A stretch of DNA of 64,000 bases from Ananas comosus (lineage: Eukaryota > Streptophyta > Magnoliopsida > Poales > Bromeliaceae), in NCBI RefSeq assembly GCF_001540865.1, contig NC_033625.1, positions 10,075,741-10,139,740 on the forward strand, written 5' to 3'. Below the pieces are notes generated by a model. That model saw nothing but the letters and a program-made list of their open reading frames with translations, was not told the origin of the DNA and ran no database searches. Position numbers and translations under genes: made by a program. Positions 18,300 to 59,904 of this stretch are shown piece by piece; position 1 is the stretch's first letter, and every line of letters starts with the position of its first letter.

Positions 18300-18399
18300 N
18301 NNNNNNNNNNNNNNNNNNNNNNNNNNNNNNNNNNNNNNNNNNNNNNNNNNNNNNNNNNNNNNNNNNNNNNNNNNNNNNNNNNNNNNNNNNNNNNNNNNN
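18300..18399. other. Assembly gap, 100 N
   Basis: A run of exactly 100 Ns, the usual placeholder for a gap of unknown size. The sequence differs completely across it: a minus gypsy interior on the left and the U3 of a plus LTR on the right. Confidence 0.99.
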
Positions 18400-22426: not shown

Positions 22427-24820
22427 ATATCCGTCTCTAGTACAAAAGTGGTGGTCTCTATACATATACGGGTACAACTCTCAACCTCTCACAAAAAGAA
22501 AACACGAGAGGTAGACCACCTATCGAACGATCCCTCGGTAAGCGCGCTAGCCCGAGGCGATACCCTTTCCACGATCCCTGGTCTCTCCCTGCGTGGAAGG
22601 TTCTGAAAACATCGAGAAAAAGAGGGCGTGAGAACTATAATTTATAGTTCCCAGTGGGCAATTACTGACCTCAGCTTTATGCACCACTAGGCCCCAAAAG
22701 AAAAGGGTAAGTACAATGATAAAAGCAATAATGACTGCGATATAAAGGCATAATTAAAATGCTAAATTACTAAACTCAAGTATAAACGATGTCATGGTGA
22801 TGTACATCTACGATATCATAATATCATGTCCAATGGCAATAACTAAGTGTTATTAACCTTTATCAATACATGATTTATAAGTTCTGTCATGGCAACCAAG
22901 TATGCTTTAATGCAATAAAAGACTATCAAGTATACTGCATGTCTCAACACTATGCTAAAAGCATATAAATGTAATTCAACTACTAAATCTATCTAGTAGT
23001 GATTAACCATTCTCAACACCGTGTCGATTTCCATTCCAATCAAGGACCTACCCAAGGGTAGTCCAGCTTGTGCCGCCTAAGTGCCTGTGGTAGCCCAACA
23101 TCCCTACTCTTGGAATGTGTCTGTCCCACTCGACCCCGTAGGCTTCTCAATACCGCACGAGCGAACATAAGTCGCGTAGGCTAACTCCGGAGTGCCGGCT
23201 TGTAGGGAGCGACCCTCACAAGCATGTGCGAATGAGCACAAATAGCAAGCAAGCATAGTCCAAGTCTCAAATATCCAATCCTCATGTCTCTAACATGGTA
23301 TGGTCACTAGCATCCCGAAGATCTAGTTTAAGTCACAATGTGAAGTTTCAACATTTGCTACGCCTAGTGCCCCTTGATGACACTTAGGCAATTTGATGTT
23401 CAACATGTATTCCCAAATCCCTCAATGGCCCTACCCGCTAGGTTCTCACATGTCCCGAGCTCAATGTCGCTTGATGACATTAGCTCTCTAGTTCACATAC
23501 CTTCTAAATAGCAATCTTGTCATCTTTCATGTCACAAGTAAACTCAAGTTTAAATGCATGAATCCGAACTCATTTTTACTATAGAAGTATGAAACCAAGT
23601 CTCATAAAGAATGCTAAATGCAACCAAAGATCTCCCAAGCAACTCTCTACTACATAGAGGTCCAAAATTTCATCATATATAACATATGCATTTTAAGCAT
23701 TCTAAAAATCATAATAAATACATCTAGTATGAACATGCATGCTTTTTCAATTTACGGAGCATATATAACCATATATGAGAATTTCTCATAGGTAGGCTAG
23801 GTCAAACCCACCGAACCGTCGCGTAGGGTCTCGATTCGCCGAACAAAGTTGCCCCCGAGTCTCAAAATACCCTAAAAGGATTGAGCGACAAGATACACGG
23901 GCATTACGATAAACTATAAGATCAAACTTTAACAAATTTAGCAAAAGGGCTAGAACTCACCTAATGTGTGAAAATCTCTCTCAAGCTCCAAAAGAGAGCT
24001 AAATCCCTTCCAATCCAAGCCCAAGGAAGGTTCTAAACCAACTAATTAAGCTCCAAAAGCCCTAGATTCAAAACGCCCAAAATAAGCCCTAAAACCTCAT
24101 TCTAGAGTTTCATCTCAAAACCATCAATAAAAATCCAATCTAAAGGGAGAGGATAAGTGGATTACCTCTTAGAAGCTTCAAATCAAGCTCTAAACTCTCT
24201 AAGTCCCGAAATCTCCCTACCACAATGCTCCAAATCCAAGCTCCAAAGGTGGAAAAGCTTCCAAAAGCATAAAGAGAAGGATTAAACCTTAAATCCGAGC
24301 CAAAAAGGGGATCAAATCCAAATGGGGCAAGGTGGAGCTCCTCTCACCTTCTCCTCCTCTGGTTCCAGCACAAAGAAAGCCCTAAGGGGCGTGGGTGGTG
24401 TTATAAGAAGGCAACAGTGCAAAAACACTCCTGCAGTTTCGAACTGCTCAAAATCTGCCGCCTTGTACCGGTACACGGGCTCTTGTACCGATACAAGGTC
24501 CACGAAATCCAAACCCGAGGCTCGGGTTGCTGGGCTCTGCGGCTCTGTACCGGTACAAGCTCCGATGGCTGTACCGGTACAACCATGAACCTTGTACCGG
24601 TACAAGCACAACCTTGTACCGGTACAAGCCTGCCAGAACTCAATCCGAGAGTCAGCCAAATCCCGTTTTTTCGGGTTTTGGTGCAAGGCTTTGTACCGCA
24701 AATCTCGGGACACGTGCCATAGGTCGGAACACAGTCAACGACCCACCAGAAAGTCTGGAAAAGCTCATAACACGGCCAATCACTCGAACCTCGCAATTTG
24801 CAAAGGTCCAGTGTGTTACA
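22427..24820 (-). repeat. Minus type I LTR, left-truncated
   Basis: It ends GTGTGTTACA, that is TGTAACACACTGGACC in coding orientation. GTACCGGTAC units lie at 24463-24625 and a TTATAAG TATA-like box near 24400. Conserved inverted repeats lie at 22625-22658 (a perfect GAACTATAA/TTTATAGTTC palindrome) and 23199-23222. The GGGGCGTGACA end is missing because the sequence starts inside the LTR at 22427. Confidence 0.8.
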
Positions 24821-26026: not shown

Positions 26027-28708
26027 TGTCACGCCCCGGGACCGATACCAATTTGGCCCGACCCGAGCATGTCAAACAGACGCCGAACGGACAGAGTTTC
26101 CCCTATCCGCCCAAGGCTCATCACATGTACATTTTCATCAATAGAGAAAAGCACTAACGGAAGCATACACAAACGGCTTACACGAGGGTAAGCAATAGCC
26201 ATTAGTGAAAGAAAAGGAAACTAAACATTCACTTGTACTATGATTCATTTTTTATCATATACATTGCATTCATCTTGTTCATTTTCGGATTCCTTACATT
26301 TCATTTCATCATCTCTTTCTTACATCACATTTACCACAAAATACACATTACATTCTTTTCTTTACATCCTTTACCATCATGTACAAAAGATGATCGTAGG
26401 GTACTTTACTACAAAATGAAACCCAACTTTGGTGGCCTCTGTCTAAGGCGCGATACCTTTACCTCGGTCGCTCGCCAGCTCACTCGGTCCCGGCTCTGTG
26501 GAAATAGTGGGGTGAGAACTACAACAAAGTTCCCAGTGGGTTCGGCCTCAACATCACCGACTTTTCCACTAGGACTAACTCAGGCATAATAGAAAGAATA
26601 AGCTGCATATAGTAACCAATCTATACATGATGCTAATATGTCTGAACAATAAAGCAAGGGGTATGCTCAACAATAAATAAATGCAGATTATGCAAATTCT
26701 TTCGTTCTTTATCTTTACACTTTGTTCTTTGTTCTTTGCTCTTTGCTCTTTGTTCTTTATTCTTTTCTCTTTGTTCTTTATTCTTTAATCTCAAGGCTAA
26801 CCCGGGGGTTTCGCCACATTAACTTGCTTCACATTAAGTCCCATCATCGCAGGAACTCACCCGCTAGGACCGTCCTTCGGGTTTACTCCAACCCGTGATG
26901 CATAACTCCGGAGCGCATCGCCCGAGGGGAGCGACCGCCTCCGGAGCACGGAACTCATAGCAAGTATGATCATATCCTTAACTCAAAGGATTTATAAGTT
27001 CAATCTTGACTTTACACTAGCTCTAGTGTTCTTTATGTCACTTTATGTTGCAACTCTAGCAATCGTTGTTCTTTACTTTTTCTTTTACTTTGCCATCTTT
27101 AGCATTCTTGTCTTTACACTTCTTGTTCTTATTGCCCATTTTACTTTAACTTTACACATTGTCATTTCATCATCCTTTACATCACTTTGGTTCTTTGCTC
27201 ACACTAACTCTAGTGTCACTTTACTTTACGTTTCAAATGCCACTCGATCTATGTCATTGTGCCACTCGTTTCTTTTGGCTCACTTTAGCACTCACATTTC
27301 TCTCATGCATACATATAGGGTTTCTAACATTCATAAGGTTCTCAACCATCACATTTGGCAAGATGTACTCACAATCATGGAACATCACATTTTTATCATC
27401 ACTTTACCCTAAAATGCATGCAACAAATAATATAACATATGCTCAATTGAATGACACATTAGGCATAGAGGAAAGTTCAACGAGTTTGAGAAGCACCACC
27501 CCTCGTAGGCTTTCAAAGGTGCTCCGATGATTTTCTTTGGGATTTTTAGACTTCTCGTTCTTTACCTGCGGCAAAACAAAGCCAAATTAGGCTTATTTGG
27601 CCATAACTTTACATTGGCTTTTCGTAACATTAATCCGAGCGCACCAACGCGTCGGAAATACCCCCAATTAGGTTTCTAGAGGGTCAATTGCACTTAGAAA
27701 TCCCTATGAGCGAAAGCCCCAATTTTGGTGCCCTAGCTCCATAGCATCATCAAACCTAGGGTTTGATCTCAAAGAGAAGCAAAAGTAGCTTCAATATACT
27801 CTAAAGAGTTCATCTAAACCATTCCTAGCTCATTCCAAACCCTAGTTTGGATTTCACCATGAGAGGGGTCAAGCTCTCCTTCAAGCTTTACCTCCAACAC
27901 CAAACCCATGGTCTTGATCTCAAAGGAAGCAAAAAAAAAGCTTCACATACTCTGAAAGCTCCTTAAAAACCATTTCTAGGTCATTTGGCTCTCACCTTAG
28001 GGTTTTAGCATGATTAGGGTTGAAGCTTACCTCAAAGCTTTCCCTAACTTGCACTAGAGAGGAAGAAGATGAAGTGGCTTCACTCCAATAGCTTCTCCTC
28101 CACCTTCTTTTCCTTCTTTTCCTTTGTCTTCTTCTTCTCCTTCTTTGTCTTCTAGAGAGAGAAAGAGAGGAGAGAGTGTGAGAGGGAGTGGAATGAGAGA
28201 AAATCTCATTAGCCCTCATAACATAGCTATTGGGTTGCATAATTGCTATAAACCCCTCAACTTTCACTTTAATACACTGCCCGAACTGGGCAGTTCGCGC
28301 AGGCGGGGACCGGTCTCTCCTTCAGGGACCGGTTCCCGAAGGTCGTCCCAGCGTAGCCAGAGCTGCTGCGCGCAGTGCAACCGGTCTCTCCTTGGGGGAC
28401 CGGTCTCTCGGGGACCGGTCTCTCAGGCAGGGACCGGTTCCCGAGAGCTGGTTTTTCAGGACTTAGCCGATTTTTCGGCTGTCTCACTTCATACGCGTTC
28501 GGGGACCGGTCTCTCCCACCAGGGACCGGTCCCCGAGAGCTCAAAATCTGCAGTTTTGCAGAATTTGATTCTTTAGCTCTCGAAAACCTTCCACAACGTA
28601 CTTTTAATCATTTTAACACCTTCGGACTTTCCGAAGTGTACCATCCTCGCACTTTGGTCAATTTGACTAAAGTTTGATACTTATTTTTCGAATTTTTGGT
28701 ATATTACA
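26027..28708 (-). repeat. Type II solo LTR with target duplication CTGCA
   Basis: The plus strand runs TGTCACGCCCCGGGACCG to GGTATATTACA, 2682 bp, between perfect CTGCA repeats (26022-26026, 28709-28713). GGGACCGGTCTC units lie at 28305-28535. A TATA-like TATAAAC lies at 28248 (read on minus). A pyrimidine leader lies at 28085-28155. Conserved inverted repeats lie at 26175-26193 and 26506-26540, with a weaker one at 26921-26946. A CTTTGTT-type heptamer minisatellite lies at 26698-26790. It sits inside the plus LTR 24821-29442. Confidence 0.93.
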
Positions 28709-29442
28709 CTGCATAACTATGTTGTAGTTGTATTCATTACACTGTTGAAGTATACTAGCATGATAGTAGGTTATTGCTAGATGATGTTCCATGCATTCTT
28801 TGCATTTGATGGCATAGTAGATATAGTAGCAATGTATTTCTATCTACCTTTCTATCTATCTATCTGTGCCAGCTTGGACCTAGTGGGAAGATCGGCGAAG
28901 TCGGCGGCCGAACCCACTAGGAACTATATTTATATAGTTCTCACCCTGTGTCGTTTTGGGGTACAGGTACACACGAGAGCGGACCGGCAGATGATCGCGG
29001 TAAGGGCTTAGCGCCCTAGTGCTAGTTAGTAGATGCTTTCCTACTGCATTAGGGTTACCCTATATATTGAGAGTAGATGATGTATAGGGCGTGAGGTATA
29101 TTTTGAGATGAATGTAAACTAATGTTTATATTTTGGGGAAATGCAAAGTTGTAATTAATTGTATCATGTTGAATTAATGTAATAGCTTAGTATCTTTCTC
29201 TCTCTTTTGTTTCACTGGTATTTTTATTACTCGTGACGCTTGCTCTTGTAATGTTCAGCACTGTTTGTGCTCCCACTGTTGTTGTATGATCGTGTAGGTA
29301 TTCAAGTTGATTTCCTAGGGACTTGTTGTACACGATCGTGTTGTTTAGCCTTGGGCGGACATGGGAGGTACTGTCCGTCCGGCGTCCGTTCGCCGCGCCC
29401 GAACCGTGCCAAATTGGTAGCGGTCTCGGGCGGGGGTGTGAC
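28709..29442 (+). repeat. Plus LTR, 3' end (continues 24821-26026)
   Basis: It resumes directly after the CTGCA duplication. It carries the conserved GAACTATAT/ATATAGTTC stem at 28914-28946, a CGGACA...TGTCCG inverted repeat near 29354-29373 and the LTR terminus GGGCGGGGGTGTGACA. From 28749 on it is reproduced in complement at 35477 onward. Confidence 0.8.
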
Positions 29443-30738
29443 AGCATAGAGGTCCAACATGCATTGTATACAACATAAGCATTCTAAAATTCATAAATAA
29501 TGCATCTAACGTGAAAGTGCATGATTTTCTATTTTACGATACTTAAATCAACAAAAATGAGATTTTCTCATTTTTTGGTGAGGTCAAACCTACTAAGAGC
29601 TCCACATGACCCTTCGTTGCCACGACTCTCCTAGCTCCAAGACTTTAGGTGTTGTCACAATGCTACGATTCCGGTTTCGTGATTTTTGGAAGCTTACGCC
29701 GCGAGCTGCGGCAATCTATACCAAAATCGGCATTTTCTTCAATATCTTCGCGTAGCCTCGTCGTATCGCCGAACCGACTTCGCTAGCGCGTTCGTATACC
29801 TAACAATTAGGTTTGAATAGGTTCAATTAAGATCAAACCCCTTTATATCGCAAACCCTCTTTTTAAGCCCTAACATGCTACTACTGCAAGAAATCACCAA
29901 ATTGGAACTTGATTCATGCAATTAACATGTTATTAGCATCTAGGGAGTCCTCTAAACCCATTCCTAGAGCATATAATTGAGGCTCTAAAATTCTACCATT
30001 AAAACCCTATGAAGCTTACCTCTCAAGCTAGCTCCAATGGCTAAGTGATGAAGAGGATGAAGACTTTCACCTCCAAGCAACTCCAATCTCCTCCAAATCC
30101 CAAACTTAACCTCCAATTTCTCCTCCAATTAATCCTCTTTTGTGAAGAGAGAGATCTTAGAGACAAAGAGAGAGAGAGAGAAAACAAGCTTGCTCTCCAA
30201 GCCTCTCTCGGGTTGGGCACAAAGGAGAAAAAGAGTGCAAGTTCAAATATATATATACCCCCAAAATACTATTCATCTAGCAGAACTGACGTTTTTCGCC
30301 GAAACCCTTCTGAATGTTTGATTGCGCTCAAATTTGACAGTCAGGCTCGGTTTTACCTAACTAGAAAAAAAAAATTTAAATCTTTCCGTTACGACCATGT
30401 TTCGTCACCGAAAGCTCTACCGAACTGTAATCTCTAATAGATAGCAGTCGGATTTTATTTTTTACCTTCCGGGTGTCGGATCGACCTAAAACTTTAAATC
30501 TAGCCTCATAAAAATATTCCTGACATATTCCCAAATTTTCATAATTTTTCGACATTGTATATTTTCTGCTAAAATATCAGCCCCGTTTCTCACAGAAAAT
30601 TTTAAATTTTCTGTTTTCATTCCGATTTCAGCACAAGTCGTTCTCGACTTATATTCTACTTCTATAAGTCCAATAAAAATAGTATCTCACACTATTTTTA
30701 TTTATTTTTACCCTATTATAAAAATCTGGTATACTACA
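29443..30738 (-). repeat. Minus LTR fragment (U3 side) inside a reverse transcriptase gene
   Basis: It ends GGTATACTACA on the plus strand, a type II LTR start in coding orientation. Just after it RT coding sequence begins. Its other half is missing: the left side is cut by the plus LTR ending at 29442. The A-, T- and pyrimidine-rich parts resemble 42300-42450 read as complement. A GA repeat at 30160-30180 marks the leader. Confidence 0.7.
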
Positions 30739-30922
30739 TTGCCATCGAACCGGGAGATTGAGTTCGTCATTGATTTGATTCCCGATGCGGCGCCAATTTC
30801 GAAGGCTCCGTAAAGAATGGCACCGGTGGAGCTACTGGAGTTAAAGGCCCAATTGCAAGACTTGCTCGATAAAGGCTTTGTGAGGCCAAGTGTGTCGCCG
30901 TGGGGAGCTCCGGTGCTATTTG
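30739..30922 (+). pseudogene. Ty3/gypsy reverse transcriptase, N-terminal piece
   Basis: The plus-strand translation gives REIEFVIDLIPDAAPISKAP, a stop, then [21 protein letters not shown] and PWGAPVLFV. This is the conserved entry of Ty3/gypsy RT. The codon run is cut at 30922 by the solo LTR at 30923 and resumes at 33486. An in-frame TAA replaces the Tyr after APISKAP. This is the first of three RT pieces of one plus-strand element. Confidence 0.9.
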
Positions 30923-33485
30923 TGTCACGCCCCGAGACCGCTACCAATTTGGTCCGGTTCGAGCGCGTCGAATAGACGCTAAACGGACAGCACCTCCCTT
31001 GTCCGCCCAAGGCTAAACACCCATATCGTGTACAAGAATTTGCCCAGAAATAAAAATTCTATACATACACAATCAACGAAGGGCACAACAAGTGCCCACA
31101 ACTAAGAGCAAGAGTCATATGTATATACAAGTGAACAAAAGAGAGATTTACTAGCTATTACATCACATTGCATTCATTTACCTCAGGTTACATTTACATC
31201 TTTTCCAAAATTGATACACGTTTACTAAATAATCCCAAAATACATACATCAATAGCTCTCCAAATTCTCACCTACATGAGTCCCTCAAATGTATAAGGTA
31301 ATACTAATGCAAAATAGGAAAGCTACTATGTACTACTGCTCGGGCGCGATGCCCTTGCCGCGGTCCTCACCCGACGTACTCGTACTACGCCCTGCAACAA
31401 AGTGGGGTGAGAACTATTGTCCATAGTTCCCAGTGGGTTCGGCAGCCGACTCCGCTGATCTCCCCACTAGGTCCTAATGGACAAAAACAGATAGATAGAT
31501 AGATATAAAAAATGTAAATGACATAGTAAGAAAACTATGCTACTATACCTAAATCATGTGTAATGTATGCATGCATCATATAGTAAGTAGTTTACTAACA
31601 TGCCACTATGTCCACTGCAATATCCAATAAGCAAATGTTCAATGACAGTGATGTCCACTACAATGTCCAATAAGCAAATGTTCAATGACAGTGCTATTCT
31701 CTTGTTTACTCAATCCTTAGCGATCCCTTGGGTCGCCCACGACTCACCTTGCCATCCCGTATGGTAAGGAGACTCACCTCGCTCTCAAACCCGGGACCGT
31801 CTGCGGGACATCAACTCTGTCCCTCTCGCACCAAACTCCAGAGTGCACGACGACTTGTGTGGCGCGACCACCACAAGTATAAACAGACTGTGAGTATGAT
31901 CCATCCTCTCAACTCGAGGATACCCTATCAACTAGGGCTAAAAGTCACTCGGGAATCCACCTATCCCAATGTCCATATGTAAGTATTTAACTACACTATG
32001 TTCTTGTTCAACGAGTCATCACTAGGGAGTCCACCTATCCCTAAGTTCATATGTCATTAGTGTCATTGTACACTACATTATATGCCACTCGTTCTGTTCA
32101 TTTGTCAATCACATGCCACTCATTATGTCACTAGGAAACCATGAAGTCCATCTCTTTTCCTCGGCAATATAGGATTCAATGTCAAGACCCAATCCCCATC
32201 TATCCATAATACCAAGCATTCAACTCATACTATGATATCAATTAGAAAGCATAAGGAATGGAATAAAATGCAATCCTACAATGCAATATGCAAGAGATGC
32301 GAAATCATGGTATACTAAGACATAGAGAGGAACCCGGTTGCTTCGGGATGACACCACCCACATTTTGATGATGTCGAGGCTCTTAAGAACCCTACTCGGC
32401 ACTTGTTATGATGTCGTCTCAGCCTCCTAGGCGGAAACGAAGCTCGATCGGTCTTGTTTTGCCGATATCTTTTCAACGACTCGACAAATGCTCAATACGT
32501 CCTCGCCAACGCGTTTAGACACCTAGCAATTAGGTTTAGATGACATCAATTGAGATCAAACCCTATTAACAAGCAGAGCCCCAATTTGGAGCTCTAGATG
32601 TGCATCTATAGCAAACTATCCCAATCAAACTCTAGATTTAAGCTTTAAACCTCTATTAAGCATGCTAGAATTCTAATCAAACCATTTCTAGAGCTATAAA
32701 TCCAAACCCTAGGTTTCTACCATTAATGAGCTTGGAAGCTTACCTCTAAGCTTGCTCCAATGATGAGGAGAGGAAGAAGAAGATGACCAAGGCCCTTCTC
32801 TAGCTTGCTTCTCCTTCTTCTCCACCTTCTTCTCCTTCCTTTCCTTCTTCTCCTTCTTCACTTCAAGAGAGAGGGAGAGAGAGCTTAGAGAGAGAAGGAG
32901 AGACGGTTGGGTGTGAAAATGAGAGGGATAGAGGGTGATCTCCATTCTATACCCCTAACTAATGCAACAATTGCATCCAAGCCCCTCAACTTTGCTTCTC
33001 TCACACTGTCCAGACTAGGCAATTTTTGTGCTCGGGGACCGGTCTATCCCTAAAGGGACCGGTCCCCGAGAGCCTTTCCTGTGGGCAGAGGCTCTCAGCC
33101 AGTTTATAAGCGTACGGGGACTGGTCTTCCCCGCCAGGGACCGGTCCCCAAGAGCATAATTGGTGCGTAGCATTTTTCTGCCACTCACTATGCTTACGGG
33201 GACCAGTCCTTCCCACCAAGGACCAGTCCCCGAGAGCAAGACTTGTGCGCAGAGCTTCTCTGCCGCACCCTTTGCTTACGGGGACCGGTCCTTCCCACCA
33301 GGGACCGGTCCCCCAGAGCAATTTCTGCAAAGTGCAGATTTTTGCACAACTTGTTCTCGCGGGTCCGTTGCAATACACTTTTTGGGTTTTTGACTTCTTC
33401 GTCTTTTTAGAAGCATACCCACTCGACAATTAGTCGATTCTGAGCGAAGTCCAACTCTCGGATTTCGAGAATTCACTTCCTTACA
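30923..33485 (-). repeat. Solo LTR with target duplication ATTTG
   Basis: It begins TGTCACGCCCCGAGACC and ends CACTTCCTTACA, 2563 bp, flanked by ATTTG (30918-30922, 33486-33490). GGGACCGGTCCC units lie at 33034-33315, a TATA-like CTATACC at about 32945 and a pyrimidine leader at 32810-32870. Inverted repeats lie at 31081-31098 (GGGCAC...GTGCCC), 31401-31438 and 31853-31878. ATAG repeats lie near 31489-31505. It splits the RT gene at the V-L-F-V codons. Confidence 0.95.
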
Positions 33486-33775
33486 ATTTGTAAGAAAAAA
33501 AAGATGGCACACTTTGACTCTGTGTGGATTATCGCGAGTTGAATAAAGTGACAATTAAGAATAAGTACCTGTTGCCGAGAATTGATGATTTATTCGATCA
33601 GTTGCAAGGGTCGAAGGTGTATTCGAAAATTGATCTTCAATCGGAATATCATCAGTTGAAGATCCGGCCGAAGGATGTGCACAAAACGGCGTATCGTACG
33701 CGGCATGGCCATTATGAGTTCACGGTAATGCCGTTTGGGCTTACTAATGCCCCTACAGCATTTATCGACTTGATG
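33486..33775 (+). pseudogene. Ty3/gypsy reverse transcriptase, palm piece
   Basis: It continues the RT from 30922. A run of eight A causes a frameshift. A [19 protein letters not shown] block follows, in which CGA has become TGA. The frame then stays open through [14 protein letters not shown] (usually SGYHQL in the family), [20 protein letters not shown] and IDLM. It is cut at 33775 by an LTR start. The YxDD catalytic part is found at 44887, so about 18 bp of coding sequence is missing between the pieces. Confidence 0.92.
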
Positions 33776-34110
33776 TGTCACGCCCCGGGACCCGGCATAG
33801 GCTCTGCCCGGTGCGTGCTGAGACACGCCATATGCCTGCACATATAAGGCGTCTATAACAAAGTCATATGAAAGATAAAATAAACAATGACTAACGATAT
33901 CAGAGCAAATATGCAGCTAAGTTCTATCAACAAGCGGAAATAAAAAGGAAAAAAAAAGAGACTAAACCATTAGAACATAAAGAAACTAATACATCATAAG
34001 TCTCCAGATACAAAAGTAGGGTGGTCTCTATAATAAGTTACAAAACTCTCACAACCTCTCCAACAGAAAACAAAAGAGAGGTGAACCACCTATCGCCAAA
34101 TCCCTCGATA
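33776..34110 (-). repeat. Minus type I LTR, first 335 bp, ending at an N
   Basis: It starts TGTCACGCCCCGGGACCC and matches the same region of the LTR at 11404. It stops at the single N at 34111. The complement-written copy at 40504-40838 covers the same bases and continues past this point, to about 43195. Confidence 0.85.
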
Positions 34111-34111
34111 N
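34111..34111. other. Single N marking a faulty join
   Basis: One N separates normal sequence from the complement-without-reversal block. The LTR interrupted here does not continue on the other side in either orientation. Confidence 0.95.
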
Positions 34112-35415
34112 CGAGTTTCCTTACTGTGTAATCCGTATCTCTCTTCAAGTTACTCAAACTTTTCGTGGTGGGTGGAGCATCCGGAGGTTTCCACGAGGTT
34201 GCTAAAAGAGGCCTAAAAATCTGGGGAGCAAGAAATGGACGCCGTTTTGCTTGGGTTTAATCCGAGTAAACCGAGTATTGAAATGTAGCTGAAAAGCATT
34301 GTAATTAGGCTCGCGTGGTTGCGTAGCCTTTATGGGGGTTAATCCAAAGATCTCCCAGTTAACGTGAATCTTTAGGGAGTACTCGTTTTCGGGGTTAAAC
34401 CCACGGGATCGAGGTTATCGTAGTACAGTTTGGATCCCAAACTAGAGTTTCTCTTCGTTTTCATCGAAGTTATATGAGATTTCTTGGGTAGATCTTGGTA
34501 AGGATCCGAGTAAGGTTTTGGGATCAAACCTAAAGTGGTACTCTCCACCCAAGTTCGAGTGGAAGTTCGAAATGGAGGTTGTGGTTTGGGTACCTGAACT
34601 AGAGTTTTCTTCGTTTTTTTTTCGAAGTGTTTGAGAAGTTTATGAGGTAATTTTTGGTAAAGATTCAGTAAGTTTTGAGTGGGATCCCAAAATGGTGTTA
34701 TATCCTAGTTTCGAATGGAAGTTTCGAAAGGGATTGAACGTGATCTCTCCTTCTTCTACTTCGGCGAAGTGAGGTTTTCGAAGAGGAGGTGGAAGGAAAG
34801 GAAGAAAAGGAAGGACAGAAAGGAAGAAGAGGAAGAGGAAACGGAAGATCTCTCTCTTTCTCTCCTCTCTCACATTCTCCCTCACCTTACTCTCTTTCCT
34901 AGAGTAGTCGGGGGTATTGTATTGGTAACCCAACGTGTTAACGATAATTTGGGGAGTTGAAAGTGACATTATGTTGACGGGCTTGACCCGTCAAAAGCGC
35001 GTCCGCCCCTGGCCAGAGGGGCTGATCCCTGGCCAGGGGCTCTCGAGCAGGGTCGCGTCGGTCTCGACGACGCGCGTTACGTTGGCCAGGGAGGAACCCC
35101 CTGGCCAGAGAGCCCCTGGCCAGAGAGTCTGTCCCTGGCCAAGGGCTCTCGATGAAAGAGTCCTGAATCGGCTAAAAAGCCGACAGAGTGAAGTACGTGC
35201 GCAAGCCCCTGGCCAGAGAGGGTGGTCCCTGGCCAGGGGCTCTCGAGTTTTAGACGTCAAAACGTCTTAAGTTAGGAGATCGAGAGCTTTTGGAAGGTGT
35301 TGCGTGAAAATTGGTAAAATTGTGGAAGCCTGAAAGGCTTCACATGGTAGGAGCGTGAAACCAGTTAAACTGATTTCAAGCTGTATGAATAAAAGGCTTA
35401 AAAGCCATATAATGT
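34112..35415. repeat. Within the block: type II LTR written in complement
   Basis: After in-place complementing this is close to, but not identical with, the LTR at 26027-28708 (from about 27447 onward). It includes the ACCGGT array, which appears here as CCTGGCCAGG at 35005-35250, and ends GGTATATTACA. At 35416-35455 it is followed by a polypurine-type tract and the start of a GTCCGCGAAA block. It is therefore a 3' LTR of a second copy, not the solo LTR itself. Confidence 0.85.
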
Positions 35416-35476
35416 AAGAGGTGGGGAATTTTATTACAGCAGGCGCTTTAATGCGTATGTAATGTGAGCAGCTAAG

Positions 35477-38400
35477 TCATATGATCGTACTATCATCCAA
35501 TAACGATCTACTACAAGGTACGTAAGAAACGTAAACTACCGTATCATCTATATCATCGTTACATAAAGATAGATGGAAAGATAGATAGATAGACACGGTC
35601 GAACCTGGATCACCCTTCTAGCCGCTTCAGCCGCCGGCTTGGGTGATCCTTGATATAAATATATCAAGAGTGGGACACAGCAAAACCCCATGTCCATGTG
35701 TGCTCTCGCCTGGCCGTCTACTAGCGCCATTCCCGAATCGCGGGATCACGATCAATCATCTACGAAAGGATGACGTAATCCCAATGGGATATATAACTCT
35801 CATCTACTACATATCCCGCACTCCATATAAAACTCTACTTACATTTGATTACAAATATAAAACCCCTTTACGTTTCAACATTAATTAACATAGTACAACT
35901 TAATTACATTATCGAATCATAGAAAGAGAGAGAAAACAAAGTGACCATAAAAATAATGAGCACTGCGAACGAGAACATTACAAGTCGTGACAAACACGAG
36001 GGTGACAACAACATACTAGCACATCCATAAGTTCAACTAAAGGATCCCTGAACAACATGTGCTAGCACAACAAATCGGAACCCGCCTGTACCCTCCATGA
36101 CAGGCAGGCCGCAGGCAAGCGGCGCGGGCTTGGCACGGTTTAACCATCGCCAGAGCCCGCCCCCACACTGTCGTATCTCCAGGTTGTACGTAACATATGT
36201 TGTATTCGTAAGATTTTAAGTATTTATTACGTAGATTGCACTTTCACGTACTAAAAGATAAAATGCTATGAATTTAGTTGTTTTTACTCTAAAAGAGTAA
36301 AAAACCACTCCAGTTTGGATGATTCTCGAGGTGTACTGGGAAGCAACGGTGCTGAGAGGATCGAGGTTCTGAAATCCACAACAGTGTTACGATGCTAAGG
36401 CCAAAGCACTAAAAACCTTCGAATGCGGCGCTCGACGCCGTTAGATATGGTTTTAGCCGTAAAAGAAGTTATAGAAGCGCATCGGAGCAGCATAGCGGCT
36501 TGGCTGAAGCGATCGCGCAAGCATATGGATTGTTAATCCAAACTTATCCAAGTTAATTCTAGTTTGGGGAAATATAGCGTTTGGGAGAAAAATTCGGGAT
36601 TGTACGATGATGACGTTCTTTAGTGGTTTAACCTTGAACTAAGTACGTTAATTGTACAATAATCGTAGATCCCTCAGGAGATTTGGGTAAGGATCTCGTA
36701 TATTAACTCCGAGATTTTAAGATGGTAATTTTGGGATACTTCGAATGGAGAGTTCGATCGAGGTTACCGATTCACTACTTCTCCTACTTCTGAAAGTGGA
36801 GGTTCGTTGAGGTTAGAGGAGGTTTAGGGTTTGAATTGGAGGTTAAAGAGGAGGTTAATTAGGAGAAAACACTTCTCTCTCTAGAATCTCTGTTTCTCTC
36901 TCTCTCTCTTTTGTTCGAACGAGAGGTTCGGAGAGAGCCCAACCCGTGTTTCCTCTTTTTCTCACGTTCAAGTTTATATATATATGGGGGTTTTATGATA
37001 AGTAGATCGTCTTGACTGCAAAAAGCGGCTTTGGGAAGACTTACAAACTAACGCGAGTTTAAACTGTCAGTCCGAGCCAAAATGGATTGATCTTTTTTTT
37101 TTAAATTTAGAAAGGCAATGCTGGTACAAAGCAGTGGCTTTCGAGATGGCTTGACATTAGAGATTATCTATCGTCAGCCTAAAATAAAAAATGGAAGGCC
37201 CACAGCCTAGCTGGATTTTGAAATTTAGATCGGAGTATTTTTATAAGGACTGTATAAGGGTTTAAAAGTATTAAAAAGCTGTAACATATAAAAGACGATT
37301 TTATAGTCGGGGCAAAGAGTGTCTTTTAAAATTTAAAAGACAAAAGTAAGGCTAAAGTCGTGTTCAGCAAGAGCTGAATATAAGATGAAGATATTCAGGT
37401 TATTTTTATCATAGAGTGTGATAAAAATAAATAAAAATGGGATAATATTTTTAGACCATATGATGTAACGGTAGCTTGGCCCTCTAACTCAAGCAGTAAC
37501 TAAACTAAGGGCTACGCCGCGGTTAAAGCTTCCGAGGCATTTCTTACCGTGGCCACCTCGATGACCTCAATTTCCGGGTTAACGTTCTGAACGAGCTATT
37601 TCCGAAACACTCCGGTTCACACAGCGGCACCCCTCGAGGCCACGATAAACACAGTGCGGGGCTCTGGCGATGGTTAAACCAGGCCAAGCTCGCGCAGCTT
37701 ATCTGCGATTTGCCTGTCGTGGAGGGAACAGGCGGGTTCCGATTTGTGGGTATAGCACATGTTCTTAAACGGGTCTTTATTTTTAAGATATGTATGTGTT
37801 AGTTGCTTCCCGTGTTGTTCACGGGTGTTGATTCTCGTTCTCAGTATACATATATGTTCACTTGTTTTCTCTCTAAATGATCGATAATGTAGTGTAACGT
37901 AAGTAAATGGAGTCCAATGTAAATGTAGAAAAGGTTTTAACTATGTGCAAATGATTTATTAGGGTTTTATGTATGTAGTTATCGAGAGGTTTAAGAGTGG
38001 ATGTACTCAGGGAGTTTACATATTCCATTATGATTACGTTTTATCCTTTCGATGATACATGATGACGAGCCCGCGCTACGGGAACGGCGCCAGGAGTGGG
38101 CTGCATGAGCATGATGCGGGACGTTGTTTCACCCCACTCTTGATAACAGGTATCAAGGGTCACCCAAGCCGTCGGCTGAGGCGACTAGAGGGGTGATCCA
38201 GGATTACCTGTTTTTGTCTATCTATCTATCTATATTTTTTACATTTACTGTATCATTCTTTTGATACGATGATATGGATTTAGTACACATTACATACGTA
38301 CGTAGTATATCATTCATCAAATGATTGTACGGTGATACAGGTGACGTTATAGGTTATTCGTTTACAAGTTACTGTCACTACAGGTGATGTTACAGGTTAT

Positions 38401-40838
38401 TCGTTTACAAGTTACTGTCACGATAAGAGAACAAATGAGTTAGGAATCGCTAGGGAACCCAGCGGGTGCTGAGTGGAACGGTAGGGCATACCATTCCTCT
38501 GAGTGGAGCGAGAGTTTGGGCCCTGGCAGACGCCCTGTAGTTGAGACAGGGAGAGCGTGGTTTGAGGTCTCACGTGCTGCTGAACACACCGCGCTGGTGG
38601 TGTTCATATTTGTCTGACACTCATACTAGGTAGGAGAGTTGAGCTCCTATGGGATAGTTGATCCCGATTTTCAGTGAGCCCTTAGGTGGATAGGGTTACA
38701 GGTATACATTCATAAATTGATGTGATACAAGAACAAGTTGCTCAGTAGTGATCCCTCAGGTGGATAGGGATTCAAGTATACAGTAATCACAGTAACATGT
38801 GATGTAATATACGGTGAGCAAGACAAGTAAACAGTTAGTGTACGGTGAGTAATACAGTGATCCTTTGGTACTTCAGGTAGAGAAAAGGAGCCGTTATATC
38901 CTAAGTTACAGTTCTGGGTTAGGGGTAGATAGGTATTATGGTTCGTAAGTTGAGTATGATACTATAGTTAATCTTTCGTATTCCTTACCTTATTTTACGT
39001 TAGGATGTTACGTTATACGTTCTCTACGCTTTAGTACCATATGATTCTGTATCTCTCCTTGGGCCAACGAAGCCCTACTGTGGTGGGTGTAAAACTACTA
39101 CAGCTCCGAGAATTCTTGGGATGAGCCGTGAACAATACTACAGCAGAGTCGGAGGATCCGCCTTTGCTTCGAGCTAGCCAGAACAAAACGGCTATAGAAA
39201 AGTTGCTGAGCTGTTTACGAGTTATGCAGGAGCGGTTGCGCAAATCTGTGGATCGTTAATCCAAATCTACTGTAGTTAACTCTAGTTTGGGATAATTGTT
39301 CGTCTCGGGGTTAAACCTCGAGATCTACACGTAGATATCGTTTGATAGGGTTAGTTTGAGATCTAAATTCGAAATTTGGAGATAATTCGTACGATCTTAA
39401 GATTAGTTTGGTAAAGATCTCGATATTTAGGTTTGGGATCCAAAGATGGTAATTACTCGAACCTTCGAATGGAGATTCGAACGAGGTTACTACTCCTCTC
39501 CTTCTTCTTCTACTGGTTCCGGGAAGAGATCGAACGAAGAGGAAGAAGAGGTGGAAGAAGAGGAAGGAAAGGAAGAAGAGGAAGAAGTGAAGTTCTCTCT
39601 CCCTCTCTCTCGAATCTCTCTCTTCCTCTCTGCCAACCCACACTTTTACTCTCCCTATCTCCCACTAGAGGTAAGATATGGGGATTGATTACGTTGTTAA
39701 CGTAGGTTCGGGGAGTTGAAACGAAGAGAGTGTGACAGGTCTGATCCGTTAAAAACACGAGCCCCTGGCCAGATAGGGATTTCCCTGGCCAGGGGCTCTC
39801 GGAAAGGACACCCGTCTCCGAGAGTCGGTCAAATATTCGCATGCCCCTGACCAGAAGGGGCGGTCCCTGGCCAGGGGTTCTCGTATTAACCACGCATCGT
39901 AAAAAGACGGTGAGTGATACGAATGCCCCTGGTCAGGAAGGGTGGTTCCTGGTCAGGGGCTCTCGTTCTGAACACGCGTCTCGAAGAGACGGCGTGGGAA
40001 ACGAATGCCCCTGGCCAGGAAGGGTGGTCCCTGGCCAGGGGGTCTCGTTAAAGACGTTTCACGTCTAAAAACGTGTTGAACAAGAGCGCCCAGGCAACGT
40101 TATGTGAAAAACCCAAAAACTGAAGAAGCAGAAAAATCTTCGTATGGGTGAGCTGTTAATCAGCTAAGACTCGCTTCAGGTTGAGAGCCTAAAGCTCTTA
40201 AGTGAAGGAATGTTAAACATTCTTTTTTTTCTACCGTGTGAAACTGAGACACACCTAATAGCGCTCAACTTATTTCACTGTTAATTCTTATTCATGGACA
40301 ACGGCTCTTAACTACTAAATAAGCTAGTCAACGTTCCCAGCTTCCACATAAGCTTTTAACTAGAAGTTAGCCTTATAGTAGTCAACTTCTAGGCCGGCTT
40401 CCTACACGTGTTTTGCCGCATAGCATGCGCCGTACCGGTAATACTCAAGTGCCATTACGGCAAACCCGAATGATTACGGGGATGTCGTAAATAGCTGAAC
40501 TACACAGTGCGGGGCCCTGGGCCGTATCCGAGACGGGCCACGCACGACTCTGTGCGGTATACGGACGTGTATATTCCGCAGATATTGTTTCAGTATACTT
40601 TCTATTTTATTTGTTACTGATTGCTATAGTCTCGTTTATACGTCGATTCAAGATAGTTGTTCGCCTTTATTTTTCCTTTTTTTTTCTCTGATTTGGTAAT
40701 CTTGTATTTCTTTGATTATGTAGTATTCAGAGGTCTATGTTTTCATCCCACCAGAGATATTATTCAATGTTTTGAGAGTGTTGGAGAGGTTGTCTTTTGT
40801 TTTCTCTCCACTTGGTGGATAGCGGTTTAGGGAGCTAT
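35477..40838. repeat. Within the block: parallel complement of 28749-34110
   Basis: The parts map as follows: 35477-36170 to the plus LTR end; 36171-37466 to the minus LTR at 29443; 37467-37650 to the RT entry piece; 37651-40213 to the solo LTR at 30923; 40214-40503 to the RT palm piece; 40504-40838 to the LTR start at 33776. The eight-A run of the RT piece appears as eight T. Every segment I compared base by base was identical. Confidence 0.95.
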
Positions 40839-43195
40839 CGATCGAGCTCCGCTTTGGAAAGGGCGCTAGGGCTTGGGGAGGGCCTCACCTTCCGAGACTT
40901 TTTTTTGTATTTTATCCCCCCGTACTCTTGATATTAAATATCAAGGGTCACCCGTTAATGACTGGACGTGGTTGACGTGATGATCCGGGGTTTCTCTCGT
41001 CTATTCCTATTGTATTTAATTGACGCCATTTATTCCGTATTATAATTTTACGATGAGATGATACGGTGTTCATACATCTTACAGTTGTACCTCATGTAGA
41101 TGAGATGTACTAGGTCATACGGTTATGAATTTGTTCATACGATACTACGTTGTTCATTATGATACTTCATATTATATATAGAGTTTCGGTTGTTGTATAG
41201 ATCATACATGATAGGACCGTTAGGTTCATGTGATGTTACGGTATTCGCTATGGCAGCTCATAGGATACTTAGAGTTACAGGTTGGGATACGGCATCGTAC
41301 AGTTCCTTAGGTTGATGATACTGGACAGATCATCACTAATAGTTGAACAACTAATTATAAGACTAAGTTAGAGTAAGTCCTAGATGTGCCCACATCAGGC
41401 CGAACACGGCAGATTCACGGACACCATCGGGTTGTAAGGACGAGAACCTTACACAGACAGAGTGAGCTGGGGCATCCGAAGAATTATGGCGTGCTCGCTC
41501 GTATACAGCGCATCCGATTGAGGCCTCACAGCCGAACATCCCTCGCTGGGCATGTTCGTACACGCTTACTCGTGTTTACCGTTCGTTCGTACCAGTTTTG
41601 GAGTTCATGGGTTAGTAGTACAGAGATTGTACCATTGTCAGTGATCGTTGGGTTTCCAGATCATGATACAGAGTTACACTTCCAACTTCGGTATCGTTAT
41701 TTATGTTACATGTTTCAAGGTTGGTCCTTGTGTAAAGTTAGTTCTAAGGTATTAGCGTTCCACTTGTTTGTTGTATTGTGTAGAATACAATAATGTACGT
41801 AAGTGTAAATACTGTAGAATGTAGTGTTTATGAATAATGTAGATTGCGAGTTTATGTTAGGCTAAATTGTACTAATCATGTTAGAATACTGCAAGTCGAA
41901 GAATGTAGTAGTTCTTTTCGGCTGAGTTCTGTGTACGATAGAGACCAGCGCCAGCATCTCGCGATTGATTCATACAAGAAAAGTTATGTTGATAATTGAA
42001 CCGTATTAAGAGTATTATTATTGTACGTGTACGTTAAATGTATAGGTAGTTCAGATTACGGCGAAATACTGTAATCGAACGATTCAGGTATAGATCAGGT
42101 TCGGGTTACGGCGAAATACTGTAATCGAATGATAAACATATGTGAGATCGGATACAGTGAATTACAGCTATACAGGTTGGTACAGTTAGTACGCAAGATT
42201 CGGGTTCTCACATTATATATACGGTATACGTGGTATACGTTGTACTAGAGTTAGTTAACATTCTTACGATTGGCATCCGGGGATCGGGTTGTACTTTTGA
42301 GAGATGATATATCTCCAGTTTATACGTAACATATATTGTACACGTAAAATTCGTAAGATTTTAAGTGTTTATTACGTAGATTGTATTTATACGTACGAAA
42401 AGTAAAATGTTGTAAATTTAGTAGTTGTTACTCTCAAAGAGTAACACACCGATCCAGTTTGGGTGGCTTGACAGCACATCAGGGAGCAAAGCGGCTTGCC
42501 TCAACAGGTGCTCAGAGTTTTATGGGATTTTCATTACTCGCTTCCCTATGTGTTCCTAATGCTTGTTGCTTATTCAATTTGTAATTGGTTGAGTTTCTTT
42601 CCCGGTTTTGAGTGGATACCACCACTTTTAGGGAGTGTTCGAGGTTTACCTTCGATCTAGGGAAGGTTAGGTTGGATCTATCTCCAAGATTTTCCTAATT
42701 AACTCGAGGTTTTCGGGATCTAGTTTTTAGGGGTTTGGTTTGTGATTAAGGAATAAAGATCCCAAAGATATGTTTTTGGTATTTTTAGTACTAGTTTTCT
42801 CTTTATCATTCGTTGATTTGAAAGTACTTCGGGGGTTTGTTCCTAGTTTTGGATGATCCCAAACTCTAGAGAGGAGGTTGTTTGAGTTGAGGTTCGAGGG
42901 TTCGAAGAGGGTACCACCTTTATCGTGGTTTTTCGTTTTTCCTTGTTTTTCTCTCCTAAGTTGGAGTTTTTAGAGTTGGTTTTTCTTCTTTTTCTTTCAC
43001 CCCTTCTCCTCTTGAGGGAGTGGAAGAAGAGGTGACGACCGTTCGGGTCCTTTGTGGTACCCCGCACCCCACATAAACATTATTACGATGTTATTGTTTT
43101 TGTGGGAGGTTTGGGCTCGTCTGACGTAAGACGTGACGCATGGCCATGTGCCCGGGCGCATGGCCATGTGAAGGGTGCTTTTCCGGTTTGGGCTA
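40839..43195. repeat. Within the block: continuation of the LTR that stops at 34110
   Basis: After complementing, this extends the type I LTR past the N at 34111. Homology follows the LTR at 22427-24820 in order: a GAACTATAATTTATAGTTC palindrome near 40950, a GGCTTGTAGGGAGCG block near 41530, and GTACCGGTACAC units near 43140-43165. It is joined to RT sequence at about 43195 before reaching the expected TGTTACA end. Confidence 0.8.
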
Positions 43196-43515
43196 GGAGC
43201 TCAGCCCCATAGTAGTTCATGGGCAACGGTTCCTAACTGCTAGATAAGCTAGTCAACGTTCCCAGGTTCCACATGAGTTTCTAACTAGAGGTCAGCCCCA
43301 TAGTAGTTAATTTCTAATCCGGTTTCCTACACGTGTTCTGTCGCATGGCATGCGCCATACCGGTAATACTCAAGTGCCACTACGGCAAACCCGAATGATT
43401 ACGGGGCCGTCGTAAATACCTGAACTACTTAGCTCAGAAATCTGGCAACAACCTAGCTACGCAGCACCACAAGTATCTACTGCATAACCAGATAAGCTTT
43501 TCGCTTCTCCTATAT
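43196..43515. pseudogene. Within the block: second copy of an RT palm region, in complement
   Basis: After complementing, it encodes the RT palm from a [11 protein letters not shown] block through [15 protein letters not shown] to an [14 protein letters not shown] block. It therefore includes the catalytic F-I-D-D that the plus-strand element at 44887 has lost. An 18-base phrase (TCAGCCCCATAGTAGTTC as written) occurs at 43210 and, nearly identically, at about 43296, suggesting a chimeric join at the left edge. Confidence 0.8.
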
Positions 43516-44886
43516 GTACTATATATTGTTGCATGCATTTTAGGGTAAAGTAATGATGAAATGTGATGATTGCATGATTGTGAGCACAACTTGCATAATG
43601 AGATGGTTGAGAACCTAATAATGTCAAAACCCTAGATGTATGCATGAGAGAAAATGTGAGCACCCAAAGTGAGCAAAAGAACAGAGTGGCACAATGACAT
43701 AGATCGAGTGGCATTTGAAAATGTAAAGTAAAGAGACACTAGAGTTAGTGTGATGCAAAGAACTAAAGTGAAGTAAAGAATGAAGAAAGTGACAACGTGT
43801 GAAGTTAAAGTAAAATGGGGCAATAAGAACAAGAATGCTAGAGTTAGCAAGTGAAATGAAAATGTTAAGAACGTGATTGCATGAGTTTGCAACATAAAGT
43901 GACGTAAAGAACACTAGAGCTAGTGTAAAGTCAAGATTGAACTTATAATCCTTTGAGTTAAGGATATGATCATGCTTGCTATGAGTTCCGTGCTCGAGGG
44001 CGGTCGCTCCCCCTCGGGCGATGCGCTCCGAAGTTATGCATCCGGGTTGGAGTAAACCCGTAAGGACGATCCTAGCTGGTGAGTTCCTGCGATTATGGAC
44101 TTAATGTGAAGCAAGTTAATGTGGCGAAACCCCCGGGTTAGCCTTGAGATTAAAGAACAAAGAGCAAAGAACAAAGTGTAAAGAACAAAGAACAAGAGTA
44201 AAGTGAAAAGGATAAAGAATTTGCATAATCTGCATATATTTAATGTTGAGCATATTTCTTGCTATTTGTTCAGGCATATTAGCATCATGTTATAGAATGG
44301 TTACTATCTTACTTATCCTTTCTATTATGCCTGAGTTAGTCCTAGTGGGAAAGTCGGTGATGTTGGGGCCGAACCCACTGGGAACTTTGTTGTAGTTCTC
44401 ACCCCACTATTTCCACAGAGCCGGGACCGAGCGAGCCGGCGAGCGACCGAGGTAAAGGTATCGCGCCTTAGACAGAGGCCACCAATGTTGGGTTTCATTT
44501 TGTTAGTAGACACCCTTTTTTCATCTTTTGTATTTGATGATTAGTGATGTAAAGAAAGAATGTAAAGTTTATTTTGAGGAAAATGTGATGTAAGAAAGAG
44601 ATGATGTAATGAATGTAAGAATTTGTTAACTTATTAGATGAATGCAATGTATGGGATCCAAAGTGAATCATAGTACAAGTGAATGTTTAGTTTTCCTTTT
44701 TCTTTCACTAATGGCTATTGCTTACCCTCGTGTAAGCCGTTTGTGTATGTTTCCGCTAGTGCTTTTCTCTATTGATGAAAATGTATATGTGACGAGCCTT
44801 GGGCGGATAGGGGAAACTCTGTCCGTTCGGCGTCTGTTTGACGTGCTCGGGTCGAGCCAAAATGGCATCGGTCCCGGGGCGTGACA
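43516..44886 (+). repeat. Plus type II LTR, left-truncated
   Basis: In normal orientation it is homologous to the reverse complement of the solo LTR at 26027-28708. It contains a shorter AAAGAAC/AAAGAGC heptamer array (44152-44210), inverted repeats at 43993-44018, 44374-44408 and 44720-44738, and the end GGTCCCGGGGCGTGACA. It abuts RT coding sequence at 44887. The 5' part is lost at the edge of the complement block. Confidence 0.85.
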
Positions 44887-45740
44887 GTTGTTGGACCGGT
44901 GCGTCGTGGTATTCATTGAGGACATGTTGGTTTATTCACGGAGCGAGAAGGAACACAAGGAACATTTGAGGACCGTGTTGCAAATACTCCGGAAAGAGAA
45001 GTTATATGCCAAGCTAAAGAAGTGTGAATTTTGGCTTTCGGAGGTTACCTTCTTAGGCCATGTTATATCCGGGAGTGGCATCTCGGTGGATCCAAAGAAA
45101 GTTGAAGCAATTAAAGATTGGCCTCGCCCGACAAGTGTAGCAAAAATCCGTCGCTTTCTTGGACTTGCGGGCTACTACCGGCGGTTCGTGGAGGGGTTCG
45201 CCAAAATAATTACTCCACTAACGCGCCTTACGCACAAAGGAGTGAAGTATGTTTGGAGCGACGATTGCGATCGGAGCTTCGAGGAGTTGAAAGAAAGATT
45301 GACATCGACCCCGGTGCTTGCCTTGCCGACGCCGGAGGAGATCTTTGTAGTATACAGTGATGCTTCATATATTGGTCTCGAGTGTGTTTTGATGCAAAAT
45401 GGGCGAGTCATTGCATATGCTTCGCGCCAATTGAAGAGTTATGAAAAGAACTACCCGACTCACGACCTTGAGCTAGCCGCGGTAATATTCGCGCTAAAAT
45501 TGTGGAGGCATTATTTGTACGGTGAGCATTGTGAGATTTATACGGATCATAAGAGTCTCAAATACTTGTTCACCAAAAAAAAATTAAATATGCGACTGCG
45601 GCGGTGGTTAGAATTGCTAAAGGACTATAATGTTACTATTCTATACCACCCCGGAAAAGCAAATGTCGCGGCTGATACTCTAAGTAGAAAATCGGTGGAA
45701 AACTTGGCTTCGGCAATTACACCCCAACCGTCATTGCAAA
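44887..45740 (+). pseudogene. Ty3/gypsy RT C-terminus and RNase H
   Basis: This open stretch starts with [14 protein letters not shown], the YxDD catalytic box, in which the first Asp is Glu (GAG at 44918-44920), so polymerase activity is doubtful. It continues through an [11 protein letters not shown] block, KKCEFWL, FLGHVIS and [14 protein letters not shown] (RT thumb). RNase H follows: [44 protein letters not shown] and [16 protein letters not shown]. Its first Asp (DAS) and the DHK Asp are present. An extra A in the run near 45738 shifts the frame. It is the third RT piece of the plus-strand element. Confidence 0.93.
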
Positions 45741-46142
45741 AAAGAGATGCAACGGTTTGCACTTGAAGTAGTGGCTCCGGGGGTGCCGACTACTCTTGCC
45801 GCATTGGTTGTGCAACCGACCTTGTTGGAGAAGATTAAAAATCTACAAGCTTCCGATCCATATCTCCAAAAATGATTTTGGTATTGGGGTGTGCTGGGTG
45901 TAGTTGAAAACGGTAGTGCCGATGATTTTGGTATTGGGACCGATGGCGCACTTCTATTCAGAAATCGTTGGTGTGTGCCCAAAAATAAAGATATTCGAAA
46001 GGCAATTATGCAAGAAGCGCATCAATTGTCTTATAGTATTCACCCGGGCGGCACTAAAATGTATCAAGATTTGAAAGTGCATTATTGGTGGCCGGGCATA
46101 AAGAAAGATATTGGGGAGTTCGTGTCGCAATGTCTCACGTGA
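45741..46142 (+). pseudogene. Pol linker and integrase zinc-binding domain
   Basis: After the frameshift the frame gives a [15 protein letters not shown] linker. It has a TGA at 45873-45875 and a nearby duplication of GATTTTGGTATTGGG (45874 and 45921). The zinc-binding part shows an EAHQLSYSIHPGGTKMY block, a HYWWPG block and C-L-T, followed by TGA where the second Cys is expected (46140-46142). The His residues of the H2C2 finger are present, while the final Cys is lost. Confidence 0.9.
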
Positions 46143-47278
46143 CAACAAGTGAAAGTGGAGTGCCGGTTTACGGCGGGAAAACTCCAAAGTTTATCTATAC
46201 TCGTTTGGAAGTGGAAAGATATTGCAATGGATTTTGTGACCGGTTTGCCTCGATCTCAAGCCAGGCACGATGCGATTTGGGTGGTTGTGGACCGGTTGAC
46301 GAAATCGGCACAATTTTTGCCGATCCACACCACGTGGTCCGAAGACAAATTAGCTCAAGTATATCTCGACGAGGTTGTGAGACTTCATGCGGTTCCGGTG
46401 TCTATTGTGTCGGATCGAGACCCTAGGTTCACATTTTATTTTTGGAAGAGCTTACAAGATGCATTGGGCACACGGATCGATTTTAGCACGGCATTTCATC
46501 CTCAAAGTAATGGTCAATCGGAGAGGGCAATACAAATCCTTGAGAACATGCTTCGGGCGTGTGTACATGATTATAAGGGCGGATGGCATGATTATTTACC
46601 GATGGCGAAATTCGCATACAACAATAGCTATCAAGAAAGTATTGCGATGGCGCCATTTGAAGCCCTTTATGGAAGGAAATGTCGCTCTTCTATATATTGG
46701 AGTGATGTGGGCGAGAGAGTTGCTCTTGGCCTCGATGTGGTGTGGGAGGCGAAGGAGAAAGTTCGTCTTACCCGCCAACGACTTGCGACGGCGCAATCTC
46801 GGCAAAAGAGTTATGCCGACAAACAGAGAAAGGATATAGAGTTCGCGGTTGAAGACCGCGTATTTTTGAAAGTATCGCCAATGCGAGGAGTAAAGTGGTT
46901 TGGAGTCCGTGGGAAGCTAAGTCCCCGGTATGTTGGACCGTTTGAAATATTGGAACGGGTCGGTGCGGTGGCAAACAAGCTTGCATTACCACCAAGGCTT
47001 GCGGGAGTTCACAATGTGTTTCATGTGTCAAACCTCCGCAAGTATGTTCACGATCCCGAGCATATTCTCTCGTATGAACCGTCTGAGCTTCAAGAGGATA
47101 TGACTTATGAGGAGTTCCCAGCGTATATCATTGCTTGAGAGGTGAGAAAACTACGGAGCAGCGAAATTCTGTATGTTAAAATCCGTTGGAGCAATCACGA
47201 TGATAGGGAAGCTACTTGGGAGCTTGAGGACGCAATGAGAAAGCATCATCCTCATCTCTTCGAAGATCTGAATTGAGG
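46143..47278 (+). pseudogene. Ty3/gypsy integrase core, C-terminus and chromodomain-like tail
   Basis: The frame is open from 46143 to 47135. It contains WVVVDRLTKSAQF (first catalytic Asp), SIVSDRDPRF (second Asp) and FHPQSNGQSERAIQILEN (catalytic Glu in LEN). It also has an MAKFAYNNSYQ block, the KSYADKQRKDIEF block, DRVFLKVSP, GKLSPRYVGPFEIL and a VHNVFHVSNLRKYV block. TGA at 47136-47138, in a CGA-type context, interrupts the tail. The frame then continues with VKIRWSNHDDREATWE to the stop at 47272-47274. The DDE triad is intact, so this part decayed late. The tail type places the element in the Tekay/Del chromoviruses. Confidence 0.94.
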
Positions 47279-59593: not shown

Positions 59594-59704
59594 TTCTCCA
59601 CCCCTTAATTTAGTTTCGTCCGCGAAACTTCTAAGGTTGAAATTTAAATTTCATACCTCAGGTCGGATCCTCGAAGAGGTGAGGATAACGCTCCCTCATT
59701 TCGC
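59594..59704 (-). pseudogene. 3' end of the minus element interior
   Basis: On the minus strand it ends with the GTTTCGCGGACGAAAC block and AAGGGGTGGAGAA tract. The region before that fits the last codons of the chromodomain tail and the non-coding stretch after it. It is cut by the N at 59705. Confidence 0.8.
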
Positions 59705-59705
59705 T
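59705..59705. other. Single N replacing the element interior
   Basis: It joins the 3' interior to the 5' LTR start. The right side repeats 59399-59593 almost exactly. Confidence 0.92.
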
Positions 59706-59899
59706 NTCTCCTTCAGGGACCGGTCCCCGAGAGCTCAAAATCTGGGACTTAGCCAGATTTCCAGATTTGCTCTCCGGGTCCCATTTTGCTCCATTTATGA
59801 ACTCCAATGCACTTAGGGTCCACTGTAACTCGTTCAATTCCGCGTTCCGCTCGTTTTGACGGAACTCGGCACGACTTACGAGGGATGTGGTATGTTACA
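59706..59899 (-). repeat. 5' LTR start of the minus element, partial
   Basis: It matches 59399-59593 with ACCGGTCC for ACCAGTCC and CGCTCG for CGCTTG. It ends TGTTACA at the TAAGT duplication. Confidence 0.92.
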
Positions 59900-59904
59900 T
59901 AAGT

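Follow-up and report, generated by a model that had tools for sequence, protein, structure and literature searches.

In an ordinary inversion misassembly, the affected piece is a true reverse complement and remains valid DNA. Sequences that are merely reversed have reportedly served as benchmark decoys in one published study (PMC11099658). Contigs that overlap at a gap give rise to negative gap sizes in one assembler, and gaps are inserted within overlapping contigs by another (PMC5368935), while bases have been lost to negative gaps during patching (PMC8110574). The available parts of these two papers describe neither a single N between contigs nor a half-reverse-complement error, and our literature search found no description of the latter error, a result which does not show that none exists.

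The locus presented here lies in a window of 64,000 nucleotides (the whole stretch of DNA that was analysed) and very probably contains an assembly artefact of this kind, in which the right-hand contig would have had some 9400 bp at its left end written in reverse order without complementing. No DNA strand reads in the sense in which this block is printed, and reversing the block restores continuity with its right neighbor. The features referred to below are as follows.

26027-28710, minus strand: LTR-like repeat (putatively so called) in the left contig, the normally printed yardstick copy; 26027-27426 aligns with 43526-44886 on the other strand (87.4%) and 27441-28708 with complemented 34112-35415 (91.0%).
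28749-34110, plus strand: end of the left contig, the exact in-place-complement partner of 35477-40838 (5362/5362), with a reverse transcriptase piece at 33518-33844 (PF00078, E 1.7e-13).
34111, no strand: single N from the N-run listing, the left edge of the block.
34112-43511, no strand: the string-reversed block, 9400 bp long under the cut that scores highest, on the evidence of the complement match, k-mer sense and join tests.
34112-35415, no strand: first half of an LTR-like repeat, printed backwards and continuing at 43512 when flipped, from alignments and from join and cut tests.
35477-40838, no strand: copy of the left contig end, printed backwards, from the exact complement run.
40839-43511, no strand: backwards-printed sequence reaching 2.67 kb past the end of the left contig, with a reverse transcriptase match at about 43216-43511 in the complemented reading.
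43512-44886, plus strand: normally printed sequence forming the second half of the LTR-like repeat; the alignment runs from 43526 and the cut is at 43512.
44885-45763, plus strand: C-terminal part of reverse transcriptase with RNase H, normally printed (PF17917, 6.2e-35; PF17919, 1.2e-29; PF00078, 2.7e-10).
46143-47135, plus strand: downstream pol part with an SH3_Tf2-1 domain (PF24626, 1.2e-23).

The relation between the block and the left contig was assessed via a position-by-position comparison. Positions 35477-40838 equal the in-place complement of 28749-34110 at an offset of 6728 in all 5362 of 5362 positions, with no mismatch and no gap, which bears out the constant-offset complement copy claimed for these intervals by an earlier sequence-only reading. 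The source run stops at the final base of the left contig (34110), adjoining the single N, and no exact source for the rest of the block, outside 35477-40838, was seen within the 64-kb window. Chance or low complexity as the origin of the match was ruled out, as the longest exact complement match elsewhere in the window, with the block masked, was a 20-bp AT microsatellite. The complement observation is thus correct and far beyond chance.

The same reading had taken the complemented block for LTR and reverse transcriptase sequence and had proposed aligning the in-place complement to the sequence on its left. This alignment returned the exact 5362-bp match together with a 91.0% match of complemented 34112-35415 to 27441-28708, that is, to the LTR-like repeat. 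Further to the right, complemented 40839-41688 aligns with 22546-23351 (73.8%) and complemented 42297-43203 with 23641-24527 (72.2%). As printed, the block was searched in four pieces (36877-40838 left out) and gave 29 matches, and all 23 matches listed fall inside the block.

Reverse transcriptase matches within the block were found solely in complemented readings. When three pol-type proteins from normally printed parts of the window were used as tblastn queries, three matches were found in the complemented right half of the block, one of them being an exact copy of the query itself, and none in either printed half or in the complemented left half. A complemented frame of 140 residues (43096-43515) matched PF00078 (E 5.7e-21), and no Pfam family was matched by the three block frames that were scanned as printed. 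The RNase H domain is confined to the normally printed part at 44885-45763. From the reverse transcriptase, RNase H and Tf2-1-type domains, we read the reverse transcriptase content as being of plant Ty3/gypsy type. In a protein search in which at least 8000 scored candidates passed, the named sources among the 120 matches listed were plants, except for P0018 and P0065, and we accordingly take the window to be plant DNA. These two are reverse transcriptase and RNase H proteins which resemble those of plant retrotransposons and carry the labels Bifidobacterium longum (a 1.0-kb contig) and Snodgrassella (a 1.4-kb contig); they probably represent plant DNA inside bacterial assemblies.

Strand sense was assessed with a fourth-order Markov model that treats both strands alike; its training used sequence outside the region and excluded whichever bin was being scored. 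All 18 whole 500-bp bins within the block preferred the complemented text (-1.6 to -42.2, the weakest being 37001-37500). Outside the block, six of 108 bins were weakly negative and scattered (lowest -6.7). In a second run, in which outside bins were kept in training and two bins over the block edges were assigned to neither group, negative scores were obtained at 500 bp for 18/18 bins inside and 0/108 outside, and at 250 bp for 35/37 inside and 9/217 outside; the best single wrong-sense segment in this run was 34100-43339. No further backwards block was recognised in the window, the six weakly negative bins, none of which remained negative when trained in, being taken as noise. Dinucleotide composition was also determined: the observed/expected ratio of GpC is below that of CpG in all three block segments (0.71-0.83 vs 0.88-1.06), and CpG is below GpC in all six segments outside the block.

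The complement of a sequence is also the plain reversal of its other strand, so the match alone cannot identify which operation took place, whereas the edges of the block can. The block was therefore taken in four forms (unchanged, complemented, reversed and reverse-complemented), and each form was compared at both edges, using 400-bp flanks, with the rest of the window. Among the eight pairings of transform and join, a single one yields an alignment across a join, namely string reversal at the right edge, where all 800 of 800 query bases of the reversed block and right flank align to 27832-27025 at 86.8%. No spanning alignment was found at the left join under any of the four transforms. Since solely reversal at the right join restores homology, the block, anchored rightward, is most likely string-reversed and not complemented in place, and the same text appears complemented when viewed from the left contig. 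An ordinary inversion misassembly was rejected, as the reverse-complemented block spans neither join and its relation to 28749-34110 is that of a complement, not a reverse complement.

The left edge of the block, given earlier as 34112, adjoins the N at 34111. At the other end, 43300-43515 has no wrong-sense signal of its own in the Markov test (+2.9), and the right-hand end of the block therefore rests on homology. With the left cut held at 34112 and the right cut moved from 43500 to 43525, the score was maximal at 43512 (194, with neighbors at 189 and 187), which places the best cut at 43511/43512 and gives a block of 9400 bp. The right edge is thereby shifted to 43511, four bases left of the 43515 first proposed. 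The reverse transcriptase reading presumably also departs from the family consensus near this cut. The round length of the block may be coincidental.

Flipping the block restores a 2.7-kb LTR-like repeat made up of reversed 34112-35415 and 43512-44886. The right contig then carries, in order, 2.67 kb of sequence beyond the end of the left contig (on the opposite strand), the reverse complement of 28749-34110 and the 2.7-kb repeat, and once flipped, the duplication relative to the left contig is inverted, not direct. The two versions diverge at 28749, where the left contig passes through a short differing stretch into its own repeat copy; by our reading, the block appears to have a purine-rich tract, on the other strand, ahead of its repeat copy.

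The two halves of the restored repeat differ in how they have diverged from the copy in the left contig. For 34112-35415, the 1267 aligned bases contain 69 transitions and 20 transversions; for 43516-44886, the 1363 aligned bases contain 83 transitions and 89 transversions. Two such substitution patterns are unexpected from one repeat copy but would fit a join made via two copies of the repeat, which suggests that it was by way of the repeat that the block became attached to the right contig, perhaps in error, either prior to the reversal or during it. The block and the sequence to its right may thus not be genomic neighbors.

The direction of the substitutions was also recorded. Read on the repeat's own strand with the left contig's copy named first, 27441-28710 and reversed 34112-35415 differ by 39 A/G and 22 C/T as against 5 G/A and 3 T/C, a lopsidedness which is not as expected from plain deamination on both strands. 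The half at 43516-44886 has no such lopsided bias relative to the left contig's copy.

Taken together, the artefact would most readily have arisen if the right-hand contig was lengthened or patched leftward through the LTR-like repeat during assembly, with sequence drawn from the locus that the left contig also represents. Working on the other strand, the step responsible would have written out half a reverse complement, and scaffolding would then have placed both contigs adjacent to each other with one N. The cause proposed earlier, a contig reversed without complementing, is strongly supported as far as an assembly artefact is concerned; it probably does not apply to a whole contig, as the reversal affects a 9400-bp left-hand part which, when flipped, runs on into the sequence from 43512 within one LTR-like repeat and with no N in between.

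Compatible with this explanation, although itself unlikely, is a genuine inverted duplication with arms of 5.36 kb and a spacer of about 2.67 kb, one arm of which was written in the wrong sense by the assembler. The end of the left contig does recur, reverse-complemented, in the flipped right contig, and beyond it the repeats prolong the homology outward (91% and 87%). However, an identity of 100% beside one of 91% within a single arm is more suggestive of one locus having been used two times.

More doubtful still is a complementation in place, under which the block would be a separate piece that shares the left contig's frame and overlaps its last 6.7 kb, the two having stayed unmerged, with one N inserted, because the complement hid the overlap. 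Taken alone, the overlap with the left contig fits equally well here, as it is a proper end overlap: from 34112 the block follows the left contig from 27441 at 91% identity, and position 40838 corresponds to the final base of that contig. The other single N in the window, at 59706, likewise separates two near copies (194 bp, 99%). However, the block complemented in place gave no alignment across the right join, and it would then be a coincidence that the reversed block runs on into 43512, one reached in two of 300 cases when the reversed block was cut at random positions. The in-place geometry of the sequence-only reading holds for the 5362 matching positions; for placing the block, complementing it and comparing it with the left contig probably gives the wrong frame.

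That the printed sequence is real DNA of the organism, made by parallel-strand copying over more than 5 kb, has the printed sequence alone in its favor and is rejected as next to impossible, as the block begins at an N, the wrong-sense k-mer signal covers almost its whole length, its reverse transcriptase matches were found in complemented readings alone, and we know of no polymerase or recombination pathway that copies in parallel.

Gap symbols elsewhere in the window were also inspected. The 194 bases to the right of the single N at 59706 repeat 59401-59594, located 306 bases leftward, in direct orientation and at 99% identity, and no backwards relation across this N was seen in 59396-59900. 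The site resembles two overlapping contigs set end to end and left unmerged, as if single Ns marked presumed overlaps. Positions 18300-18399 are a run of 100 N which looks like a conventional gap of unknown size, and the scaffold thus mixes two kinds of gap symbol.

The block is almost certainly not a real biological feature and matters for data quality alone. The affected block and its surroundings consist mostly of old transposable elements. A block of this type conceals its repeats and coding relics from homology searches and can feed false sequence into repeat libraries, and because half a reverse complement aligns to little, it may slip past ordinary misassembly checks. A sliding test of k-mer sense singled out the block in this window and could be applied to whole assemblies.

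Among known systems, plant Ty3/gypsy LTR retrotransposons are represented here in that part of the block, read properly, is reverse transcriptase of such a kind, but the element itself is nothing new and is merely the background of the error. Mirror repeats of the type that forms H-DNA share with the block a reversal without complement. A mirror repeat, where one strand carries a sequence and next to it the same sequence reversed, was ruled out, as the printed copies are related by complement at the constant offset of 6728, and they differ further in extending over 5.36 kb of decayed retrotransposon sequence by an assembly gap. An ordinary inverted-contig misjoin is similar in having a wrongly oriented piece next to a gap symbol and between repeats. 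There, the inverted piece can still be read on a DNA strand, whereas here just one of the two operations was done and the resulting text corresponds to no DNA strand.
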